From Spirochaetales bacterium (GTDB lineage: Bacteria > Spirochaetota > Spirochaetia > JABEVK01): a stretch of 64,000 bases of DNA. The stretch covers positions 1 through 64,000 of the forward strand of contig CANJXC010000004.1 of assembly GCA_947478845.1 (NCBI GenBank), read 5' to 3'. The notes beneath the pieces are model-generated. The model did no database searches. It saw only the letters and a list, made by a program, of their open reading frames with translations, and had not been told where the DNA came from. Below are positions 46,574-50,208 of the stretch, piece after piece (position 1 is the first letter of the stretch; every line of letters starts with the position of its first letter). The position numbers were made by a program, and so were the translations under genes.

Positions 46574-46591
46574 GGTTTCCTCCTGAAAGGA

Positions 46592-46674: not shown

Positions 46675-47532
46675 TTAACCGAGAAGCTGGGTGACAGACC
46701 GGGTATTGACATTCGCCTGGGCGAGCATCGCGTTGCCGGCTTGCGACAGGACCTGATTCTTGGTGTAGGACACCATTTGACTGGCCATGTCGACGTCACG
46801 GATGCGGCTTTCACTGGCGGTGAGGTTTTCACCGGCGATCTGCACACCCTTGTACGCCATTTCGAAGCGGTTTTGGTAAGCACCGAGATCGGCTCGCTGC
46901 TTGCTAATCTTCTCATTGGCGGCATCCAGCTTAGTCAGAGCCAAGTTAGCCGAGTCGGGCGAACCAAGAGATATCGTCTGTCGGCCTTGAGCGGTTTCAC
47001 TCTGGAGTCCCAGAGAAAGTGCCGTCATCGTGGCTACATAGAGTCTCTTGTTCTGATCAGCGTTGGCTCCCACCTGGATTTGCATTACGGACCCGTTAGC
47101 ATTGTCTCTGGCGTAAGCACCCGTGAGCATGTTCAAGGTGTTGAACTGAGCGTGCGAGGCGACGCGATTAATTTCGTCGACAAGCTGGGAAACTTCTACC
47201 TGGATCTGCTGACGATCGCTCTGGGTGTAGATACCGTTGGCTGACTGAACCGCAAGTTCGCGGACGCGGTGGACAATATCCTGAGTTTCCGTCAGAAAAC
47301 CTTCGGTCGTCTGAATAAAAGAAATTCCGTTCTGGATGTTCTGTCCGGCTTGGTTCAAGCCACGGATCTGGGAACGCATCTTTTCAGATACAGCCAGACC
47401 CGAAGCGTCATCCGCCGCATTGTTAATCCGCTGGCCCGAGCTCAATTTCGAAAGATCCTTCTGAATCTCCGCTTGATTGGTGCCTAGGACACGGTTGGCG
47501 TTGATGGCGCTCATGTTATGGTTAATGATCAT
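46675..47532 (-). CDS. flaB: periplasmic flagellin FlaB (copy 1)
   Basis: 285 residues, core-filament flagellin of spirochaetes. The N-terminal D0/D1 helices ([40 protein letters not shown]) and the C-terminal helix ([20 protein letters not shown] then [17 protein letters not shown]) are complete; there is almost no variable middle, as usual for FlaB. About two-thirds identical by eye to copy 2 next door. AGGAGGG precedes the ATG and three hairpins precede that. Confidence 0.97.
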
Positions 47533-47537
47533 ATTTA

Positions 47538-47659
47538 CCCTCCTGGATTCGTCAAAGGTAATCCTTTACCTTTGCCTTGCCGCCCTGACCCGGAGAAACC
47601 ACGCGTCGTTTCTCGGCGGAACTGGTCAGACAAGGATCTGGAGTTTCCTAAGAAACTCC
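47538..47659 (-). promoter_or_regulatory. structured flaB leader: three tandem hairpins and ribosome site
   Basis: In the flaB copy 1 leader: AAAGGTAA-AGGA-TTACCTTT (47573-47554, 8-bp stem, loop AGGA), GAGAAAC/GTTTCTC (47614-47593, 7-bp stem) and GGAGTTTC/GAAACTCC (47659-47640, 8-bp stem, 4-base loop). The ribosome site AGGAGGG is at 47544-47538. A GGA in a hairpin loop plus a second GGA in the ribosome site is the arrangement bound by CsrA on the hag mRNA of Bacillus. CsrA control is inferred. Confidence 0.65.
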
Positions 47660-47711
47660 ACGTCCTTGCCGACCTGGGCAGGTGAACCAGAAGTGCGCTG
47701 TCAAAGAACTG

Positions 47712-47749
47712 AAAAAAAACCAGCAGGGCAGTCTCATGACCGCCCTGCT
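47712..47749 (-). terminator. rho-independent terminator of flaB copy 2
   Basis: Minus strand AGCAGGGC-GGTCATGAGACT-GCCCTGCT followed by GGTTTTTTTT, starting 15 bp after the stop codon. Textbook form; it separates the two flagellin genes into distinct transcripts. Confidence 0.92.
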
Positions 47750-47763
47750 TTAAGAATAAACCC

Positions 47764-48624
47764 TTAGCCCAACAATTGCAAGGTCGACTGTGACCTTTGG
47801 TTCGCCTGCGCGAGCATGGCGTTGCCGGATTGGACCAAGATTTGGTTCTTGGTATAGTCAACCATCTGCTTGGCCATGTCGACGTCGCGGATGCGGCTCT
47901 CGCTGGCCTGGAGATTTTCGGCTCCGATGTCCAAGCCCTTCACCGCAAACTCAAGGCGGTTTTGGTAGGCACCGAGGTCGGCCCTCTGCTTGCTGACCCT
48001 TTGGAGGGCAGCGTCAAAGGTCATGATGGCGCGGTTCGCGTCGTCTGGGCTTCCGAGGTTGATTTTCTGACCGTCGCCGAGATTTTTCAGTCCCAGAGCA
48101 GTGGCGCTCATTGTACCCACATACACGCGGGTGCGCTGATCCACATTGGCTCCGATGTGAAAATACATCGAGGCGGTAATCGTATTCGTCCCTTCCGCTT
48201 TGGCGAACGATCCTGTCAACATGTTCATCCCGTTGAACTGAGCGTGCGAAGCGACCCTGTCGATTTCATCCACGAGTTGGCTGACTTCGACCTGAATCTG
48301 TGTTCTGTCCTTCGAGGTATAAATCCCGTTGGAAGACTGCACCGACAGTTCACGCAGACGCTGGAGTATGTCTTGAGATTCCTGCAGGTAGCCTTCCGTG
48401 GTTTGGATGAACGAGATTCCATCGGAGGCGTTGCGGGAAGCTTGGTTGAGCCCGCGGATCTGGGAGCGCATCTTCTCCGACACGGCCAGTCCTGAGGCGT
48501 CGTCACCGGCGCGGTTGATCCGCAGCCCGGAAGACAACTTCTCCATGCTCTTGGTGACTTCTTTCACGGAGTCACTTTGAACGCGCTGAGCGTTGATGGC
48601 GCTCATGTTGTGGTTGATGATCAT
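47764..48624 (-). CDS. flaB: periplasmic flagellin FlaB (copy 2)
   Basis: 286 residues with the same organisation as copy 1: [40 protein letters not shown] and a C-terminal helix [20 protein letters not shown] then [17 protein letters not shown]. It has its own terminator and its own leader hairpin. Two or more FlaB proteins co-assembling in one filament are normal for spirochaetes. Confidence 0.97.
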
Positions 48625-48644
48625 AATATTCCTCCTTGAATATT
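48625..48644 (-). promoter_or_regulatory. ribosome-site hairpin of flaB copy 2
   Basis: Minus strand AATATTC-AAGGAG-GAATATT ends directly at the ATG. The ribosome site AAGGAG is exactly the six-base loop of a perfect 7-bp stem. A GGA displayed in a hexaloop is the preferred CsrA/RsmE target. A second inverted repeat CGAACC-TT-GGTTCG lies about 15 bp further upstream. Confidence 0.7.
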
Positions 48645-48723
48645 ACGTCGATTACCCGAACCAAGGTTCGAGAGACGTTGCACAAATCTTAAGTAAGGCC
48701 CAATCCGTTGGACCCCCTCACAT

Positions 48724-49665
48724 TTACTGATCGGTGTGGGGGAAAAATACTTTAAGGGAACTTGCTAGGTACTGCACAGTGGCCAAATCAACGGCCGCCT
48801 CGAGAGGAGGAAGTAACCCGCACTCCAGTCTTCTGGCATGGAGAAACCACGGGCGCGGTGCGCTTCGCGGCCAAGGCCTGGCAGAGTATTTGCTATCGCC
48901 GGCCAATGGAAAGCCCGCTTGGCGGGCGTGAGCACGGATCTGATGGGTTCTTCCGGTGGCTATCCTAACCTCTGTCAGGGTAAGTCCGCCGGCATGGACC
49001 AGCGGTACAAACTGAGTGTGCGAAGCACGGCCTTCAGGGTCGACGAACGTCAGTTTGCGCACTTCATCTCTGGTCAAGGGAGACTCTAGCGCAAGCGTTC
49101 GGGAGAGCTCGCCTTGGAGTAGGGCCCAGTAAACCTTGTAGACCTCACCATCGACCATTGCCTGTGTAAACTTGCGGGCACCGCGCAGGCTTGCTGAGAA
49201 CACGACGATCCCGGAGGTGGGCCTGTCGAGCCGATGAAGCGGGCCAGGTCGGAATGAAAGACTAGGTTCCATCCCTGTGGCAAGCCTGATTTTCACCAAA
49301 TCATCGAGGGATTGTTCACCAGATTTGTCTCCCTGGACCAACAAGCCCGAAGGCTTGTTGATGACCAGGAAATCCTCGCTTTGGAATAAAATCCAGGATT
49401 CCTCGAACGGGAGACCCCCTAAGGATCGGCGATTTTCGGGTTTGGCGCCAACACCCGAACCTCCAAGTAACGCATCCCATATTTCCACAGTGTCGCCCTC
49501 ACAAACCTTAGTTTCAGGGGTCGCTTTTTTGCCGTTGAGCCGTATATCGCCGCGGCGCATAGAGCGGTGAAGGGGTGCAAGTCCGAGCCTCGGAAGCAAT
49601 TTGCGCACAACAGTCTCTAGACGTCGCCCATGATCGTTTGCCGTTGCCCGGAACTCCTGTCTCAT
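48724..49665 (-). CDS. RluA-family pseudouridine synthase
   Basis: 313 residues: N-terminal S4-like domain (LAPLHRSMRRGDIRLNGKKA) and catalytic domain with VINKPSGLLVQGDKSGEQS, the active-site Asp in GPLHRLDRPTSGIVVFS, and VRIATGRTHQIRAHARQAGF then PLAGDSKY. RluC and RluD cannot be separated by eye. Converts uridines in 23S rRNA. Upstream of and co-directional with flaB copy 2 across 99 bp. Confidence 0.92.
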   Translation of the reverse strand: MRQEFRATANDHGRRLETVVRKLLPRLGLAPLHRSMRRGDIRLNGKKATPETKVCEGDTVEIWDALLGGSGVGAKPENRRSLGGLPFEESWILFQSEDFLVINKPSGLLVQGDKSGEQSLDDLVKIRLATGMEPSLSFRPGPLHRLDRPTSGIVVFSASLRGARKFTQAMVDGEVYKVYWALLQGELSRTLALESPLTRDEVRKLTFVDPEGRASHTQFVPLVHAGGLTLTEVRIATGRTHQIRAHARQAGFPLAGDSKYSARPWPRSAPRPWFLHARRLECGLLPPLEAAVDLATVQYLASSLKVFFPHTDQ

Positions 49666-49740: not shown

Positions 49741-50208
49741 ATGGAAACCCTTGCGACGCTCGTCTCAAATCCGATCTTCCTCTCGACCGTGTTTGCTTGG
49801 TTTTCTGCCCAATTTATCAAGACCCTTATCGCTCTCGTGCGTTCTCGAGCGCTGACAAACAAGCGAGACCTGCTGATGTCGATGGTTTGGACGACCGGAG
49901 GAATGCCTTCAAGCCATTCGGCGGTCGTCAGCGCTCTGACGACCGCCGTAGGCTTTAAAGTGGGTTTTGACTCACCCCTTTTCTTAACAGCCCTCTGTTT
50001 TTCGGGGCTGGCCATGCGAGATGCTCTTGGAGTTCGTCAGGCTGCTGGCCTGCAGGCCCGAATGCTCAACCAAATTATCCCCGACCTAAACCTGAAGTTA
50101 GGAACCGCGTACAAGCAGGTTAAGGAAATCCACGGCCACCAGGGACCCGAGGTCATCGTAGGAATGCTCTTGGGCATCTTCCTCGCGGCAGCCTTCTGTA
50201 ATCTGTGA
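49741..50208 (+). CDS. DUF212 divergent PAP2 family membrane protein
   Basis: 155 residues from ATG 49741. Motifs: FIKTLIALVR, TGGMPSSHSAVVSALTTAVG, MRDALGVRQAAGLQARMLNQ and EIHGHQGPEVIVGMLLG, all typical of the divergent PAP2 phosphatase-like family (YuiD group). Several membrane segments. Its stop overlaps the next start (GTGA). Confidence 0.88.
   Translation: METLATLVSNPIFLSTVFAWFSAQFIKTLIALVRSRALTNKRDLLMSMVWTTGGMPSSHSAVVSALTTAVGFKVGFDSPLFLTALCFSGLAMRDALGVRQAAGLQARMLNQIIPDLNLKLGTAYKQVKEIHGHQGPEVIVGMLLGIFLAAAFCNL

Follow-up and report, generated by a model that had tools for sequence, protein, structure and literature searches.

The leader of flaB copy 2, one of two flagellin genes in the analysed window (a stretch of 64,000 nucleotides from a Spirochaetales bacterium), very probably forms a two-site CsrA operator, judging from its sequence and from those of its relatives, in which a hairpin on the ribosome site (BS2) would be one half and CsrA repression would be relieved by FliW. 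Control of flagellin translation of this CsrA/FliW type had been put forward by an earlier, sequence-only reading, and it is now supported by what is established here, namely the csrA and fliW genes, the hairpins (a second one upstream included), their conservation and covariation through compensatory changes, and an ANGGA rule in the loops. The earlier reading had overlooked the second site, the related hairpin before flaB1 and the place of the start codon in the stem. From these results we infer that CsrA binds the leader.

Flagellin genes and layout of the leader

The locus is made up of the following features, all on the minus strand.
47764..48624, minus: flagellin gene (flaB copy 2) with Flagellin_N and Flagellin_C domains (Pfam), beginning ATG ATC ATC
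46675..47532, minus: flagellin gene (flaB copy 1), Shine-Dalgarno (SD) sequence CCAGGAGGG, without an SD hairpin of the copy-2 kind
48728..48754, minus: sigma28-like promoter TAAAGTAT-N11-ACCGATCA, recognised by sequence, with similar boxes in L089, L119, L120 and L123
48695..48716, minus: BS1 hairpin with hexaloop ACGGAU in the flaB2 leader, whose equivalents in genomes of the same genus and family differ in loop and stem
48655..48672, minus: spacer hairpin without GGA, CUCGAAC-CUUG-GUUCGGG, 18 nt long, between BS1 and BS2
48622..48647, minus: SD hairpin (BS2), CGUAAUAUUC-AAGGAG-GAAUAUUAUG, whose hexaloop is the SD and ANGGA site and whose stem base holds the AUG
47722..47749, minus: site resembling an intrinsic terminator, between the two flaB copies
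47553..47574, minus: BS1-type hairpin of flaB copy 1, CAAAGGUA-AAGGAU-UACCUUUG, 21 nt before the flaB1 SD

The genes are ordered flaB copy 2, flaB copy 1, flaG and fliD, and the 2.99 Mb genome has no close flagellins besides the two flaB copies, a third match being weak and falling on a flgL-like gene that adjoins fliW. From the sigma28-like box the flaB2 mRNA is predicted to start near 48720, which would give it a leader of about 95 nt. Read 5' to 3', this leader carries the BS1 hairpin, the GGA-less spacer hairpin and BS2, and a hairpin at the spacer position is also predicted or visible in the leaders of G051, G052, G055, G054 and G056. The distance from BS1 to BS2 is 71 nt in the window; members of its family have 49-69 nt, and elsewhere it is about 23 nt. 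No sigma28 box was recognised for flaB1, and the terminator-like site suggests that the two copies have separate transcripts. Between this site and the flaB1 leader there is also a perfect 8-pair hexaloop repeat (47639-47660) inside a longer hairpin (47633-47667, minus), and part of the stretch adjoining that hairpin (ATCCTTGTCTGACC) recurs in the same-genus L087.

The hairpin on the ribosome site

It had been claimed that AATATTC-AAGGAG-GAATATT stands directly before the flagellin start codon with the SD as the whole loop of a perfect hairpin. The sequence is indeed present at 48625-48644 (minus), immediately 5' of the ATG (48624-48622), and its hexaloop is AAGGAG, in which the GGA lies within ANGGA and overlaps the SD. 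The location of the 7-pair stem thus stood, while its length had been understated, since three further contiguous pairs (U-A, G·U and C-G) extend it to 10 contiguous pairs, one of them G·U, at 48622-48647 and running through the AUG. The folding energy is -7.8 kcal/mol for 10 pairs as against -3.2 for the 7 noted earlier, and pair probabilities in the predicted transcript are 0.90-1.0. The ribosome site of flaG, UUUC-AGGAG-GAAA at 46574-46590 (minus), is likewise placed in a hairpin loop, on a short stem of 4 pairs before the gene, possibly a weaker site of the BS2 kind.

A search of the 64-kb window, both strands included, for stems of 6 pairs or more (G·U counted as a pair) closed by an ANGGAN hexaloop gave only three, with loops starting at 48637, 48708 and 47566, and each of them belongs to the leader of one or other flagellin gene. 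The minimum of 6 pairs was chosen after the case had been seen, while the loops were defined by the CsrA rule as published, which was not fitted to the window. AATATTC-AAGGAG-GAATATT itself had no other match at up to 3 mismatches in the window and none in 100 shuffles. As controls, 85 genes other than flagellin genes, with GGAG at the ribosome site, were taken from the window and related loci, and their longest comparable stem had 4 pairs. Perfect hexaloop repeats of at least 7 pairs with any loop sequence number 11 in the 64 kb, and therefore the BS2 stem by itself is not rare; what is rare is the combination of stem, ANGGA loop and position. A perfect 12-pair inverted repeat, cggcggtcgtca-GCGCTC-tgacgaccgccg, was also seen at 49919-49948, where it falls within a DUF212 (divergent PAP2) coding sequence.

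Conservation and covariation in Spirochaetia

BS2 is unchanged in three same-genus genomes, and it is in the wider family that compensatory changes, by which the stem had been expected to be kept in relatives, are indeed seen as double changes. The arms read AATTTTC/GAAAATT in G053 and G055, CATTTTC/GAAAATG in a second G055 gene and GTATTC/GAATAC in G054 and G056. In the family alignment of 11 leaders the covariation score of BS2 was 0.209 as compared with 0.080 in shuffles, none of 500 shuffles reaching 0.209. Furthermore, 80% of the cells were paired against 37-59% when the arms were slid, and double changes fell at three pairs, with nine double-change cells against 3.6.

Across the class, 88 distinct sites of the flaB2 type (GGAGGA) had a mean stem of 3.97 pairs, against 2.63 with arms re-dealt (maximum of 1000: 2.94), and 36 of them had stems of at least 5 pairs against 6.8 with re-dealt arms; examples of such arms are ACAATC/GATTGT, ACTATC/GATAGT, AGTTTC/GAAACT, AACATC/GATGTT and ATTTATTC/GAATAAAT. 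The GGAGGG-type sites of flaB1-like genes (n=58), which served as an internal control, showed no stem excess (2.22 vs 2.28), so that SD composition in general does not account for the excess at flaB2-type sites. Class-wide covariation of BS2 is weaker than in the family: in independent taxon pairs the double changes that preserve pairing number 7, against 1-6 with slid arms, which is no clear excess, and among 19 strongly divergent representatives the stem length was significant (p 0.002) and the pair count was not (p 0.09).

The upstream hairpin BS1 shows stronger covariation than BS2 class-wide. Across Spirochaetia an upstream ANGGAW hairpin that covaries strongly is present in most flaB leaders. 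In it 66 double changes (60 independent taxon pairs) keep the pairing against 13-38 when slid, and pair levels 1-7 equal or exceed the maximum shuffled value; the stems are thus kept by compensatory changes in the family for BS2 and in the class for BS1. Leaders of similar order occur in the family with the BS1 loops ATGGAT (G051), ACGGAT (G052), AAGGAT (G055 and G053) and ACGGAA (G056 and G054). Elsewhere in the class, in families other than this one, the first hairpin stands about 23 nt before the SD and is most often GGC-AAGGAU-GCC, which agrees with the CARGGAUG core of the SELEX consensus RUACARGGAUGU (PMC7652899). A comparison with Rfam 15 gave no family at the curated score, its single sub-threshold match lying elsewhere, and a covariance model of BS1 run against the genome had zero matches, known sites included, the model being too short.

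CsrA, FliW and the loop rule

A search of the genome found both csrA (E 9.8e-23) and fliW (E 2.3e-38), side by side, as CsrA/FliW-type control would have it. The pair closes the cluster flgN-flgK-flgL-fliW-csrA, in which flgN, flgK and flgL are named by order and sequence, an arrangement like that of B. subtilis, where fliW and csrA are adjacent in a flagellar cluster as well. In the encoded CsrA both the MLIL strand at the N terminus and the VYRQEV arginine are retained, and the protein matches solved CsrA chains, best of all 5dmb, a CsrA homolog, into the C-terminal part. Among 50 related genomes csrA was found in 46 and fliW in 45. Both genes occur, too, in Treponema genomes that have flaB leaders without the motif, so the presence of the genes proves nothing alone, and comparing presence or absence of csrA and fliW with presence of the motif was rejected as a test, since nearly all genomes have both. 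It may be noted that one flaB group of A+T-rich gut Treponema (L012, L015, L019, L022, L037, L044 and similar ones) has a plain SD (TAGGAG, GAGGAG or AAGGAG) without an ANGGA hairpin, and that nearly all genomes of this group carry csrA and fliW.

Loops of the flaB2 type follow ANGGAG, with A in 99% at the first place and in only 49% at the second, against 31% and 40% in the 85 control genes. Pairing with the anti-SD would favour A at the second place, while CsrA asks for ANGGA; the loops thus fit the CsrA rule and not the SD rule.

Proposed switch and alternative explanations

We propose that the sigma28-type promoter would yield an mRNA with some 95 nt ahead of the coding region; its 5' end would fold into BS1 (ACGGAU hexaloop), and the spacer hairpin and then BS2 (AAGGAG hexaloop, AUG in the stem) would come after it. 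A CsrA dimer would then dock on BS1 and BS2, bridging the two and covering the SD, and by clamping the AU-rich stem of BS2 it would keep the start codon paired and the 30S subunit excluded. During flagellin export, free FliW would remove CsrA and translation would begin, whereas flagellin backing up would bind FliW and thereby allow CsrA to repress again. In this scheme the steps that we infer are that CsrA binds and represses, that one dimer spans both sites, and that FliW acts as the switch.

The leader could also act on translation with no regulator at all, an AU-rich stem around the AUG slowing initiation or acting as an RNA thermometer and the ANGGA of the loop being merely the SD. Such a reading can draw on the AUG within a 10-pair stem of -7.8 kcal/mol that is identical in the same genus, but we regard it as unlikely. 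Classical RNA thermometers have the SD paired in the stem, whereas here it is open in the loop, and the thermometer was set aside because the SD is not paired in a heat-melting stem. Moreover, the first loop A is kept and the second base is free, which is the reverse of what anti-SD pairing demands; a second ANGGA hairpin, having no SD role, is kept upstream; and beyond the two nearest genera the AUG lies mostly outside the stem.

That the hairpin arose by chance, a GGAGGA SD easily finding an upstream TC and the remainder being coincidence in one genome, gains something from the inner two pairs (C-G and U-A), which are nearly fixed and hence uninformative, and from the many class members whose BS2-type stems have only 2-3 pairs. 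Exact conservation in the genus, the paired changes in the family, the maximum of 4 pairs in the controls and the lack of excess at GGAGGG flagellin sites all speak against it and make it very improbable, the family covariation of BS2 already contradicting it. Scarcely credible, even less so than chance, is that a transcription factor uses the repeat as its DNA operator, a reading that a perfect 20-base inverted repeat near a start codon might otherwise bring to mind. The predicted transcription start is about 75 nt upstream of the repeat, and the arms of the repeat change in pairs around a fixed loop, while an operator would keep the letters of its half-sites; on these two grounds it was set aside.

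As to the two-site CsrA operator itself, further points count against it besides the weaker class-wide covariation of BS2 and the presence of csrA and fliW in genomes without the motif. The 10-pair stem of BS2 exceeds most SELEX hairpins, which have four or fewer pairs (PMC7652899), and the 71 nt between BS1 and BS2 lie beyond the 10-55 nt used as the range for cooperative binding (PMC6028588), unless the spacer hairpin shortens the path. Only this distance sits uneasily with a single dimer spanning both sites, and the spacer hairpin of 18 nt may bring it nearer to the accepted range. We put forward only tentatively, as somewhat doubtful, that the family has a variant of the CsrA switch, in which the spacer hairpin would set the distance between the sites, CsrA would clamp a self-closing lock on the start codon and not just cover the SD, and the pair of leader hairpins would represent a class-wide, unlisted RNA element.

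Comparison with known systems

The principle of CsrA acting on flagellin is already known, spirochaetes included. In the C. jejuni flaA leader it was shown experimentally that two hairpins with ANGGA hexaloops, SL1 and SL2, the second on the ribosome site, stand 21 nt apart and have compensatory changes, and that CsrA repression is relieved by FliW (PMC4894983). The flaB2 leader is like it in its two ANGGA-hexaloop hairpins, the second over the ribosome site, and in its compensatory changes, the FliW antagonism being that of C. jejuni; unlike flaA, with its 21 nt spacing and 45-nt leader, it has 71 nt between the sites, a third hairpin without GGA between them and the AUG in the BS2 stem. The hag gene of B. 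subtilis likewise has two CsrA sites, one over the SD, with FliW as antagonist (reviewed in PMC7652899), and two sites so placed are predicted here; B. subtilis has one flagellin gene, whereas here two flagellin genes lie far from csrA.

Among spirochaetes, a Leptospira study describes gel shifts in which CsrA bound the SD hexaloop of L. biflexa flaB3, where the GGA was needed, and a GGA hexaloop near the start codon of L. interrogans flaB4 (PMC8668096). The flaB2 leader similarly has a GGA hexaloop near the start codon of a spirochaete flaB; in its accessible part the Leptospira account deals with a single site and does not mention an upstream hairpin or covariation, both of which are found here. 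The flaB of Borrelia burgdorferi is cited as repressed by CsrA at the SD (Sze et al. 2011, as cited in PMC9481697; also cited in PMC8668096), and CsrA control at the same place is predicted for flaB2. For T. denticola flaB1 and flaB2, the accessible text of PMC9481697 notes CsrA sites near the SD in passing; the flgN-flgK-flgL-fliW-csrA cluster and the candidate sites near the SD are alike in our genome, and the leader structure, which that text leaves aside, is analysed here.

A search of the literature, most subscription papers being outside its reach, found no report of a class-wide two-hairpin leader, of the spacer hairpin or of an AUG in the stem. The details particular to the present case are accordingly the class-wide conservation, the family's spacer hairpin between the sites and the start codon inside the stem. 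The results provide comparative evidence that CsrA control of flagellin translation is widespread in Spirochaetia, whose internal flagella give the cell its shape, and they supply the exact bases to change in a test. The natural series of spacings, from about 23 to 71 nt with and without the spacer hairpin, is suited to testing how a CsrA dimer bridges its sites.

The analysis also tells which flagellin paralogues carry which sites. An extra flagellin paralogue in the same-genus L116 (G052) and L117 (G051), absent from the window's genome, is without a hairpin of the BS2 type, and control may, to judge from such leaders, differ between flagellin paralogues.
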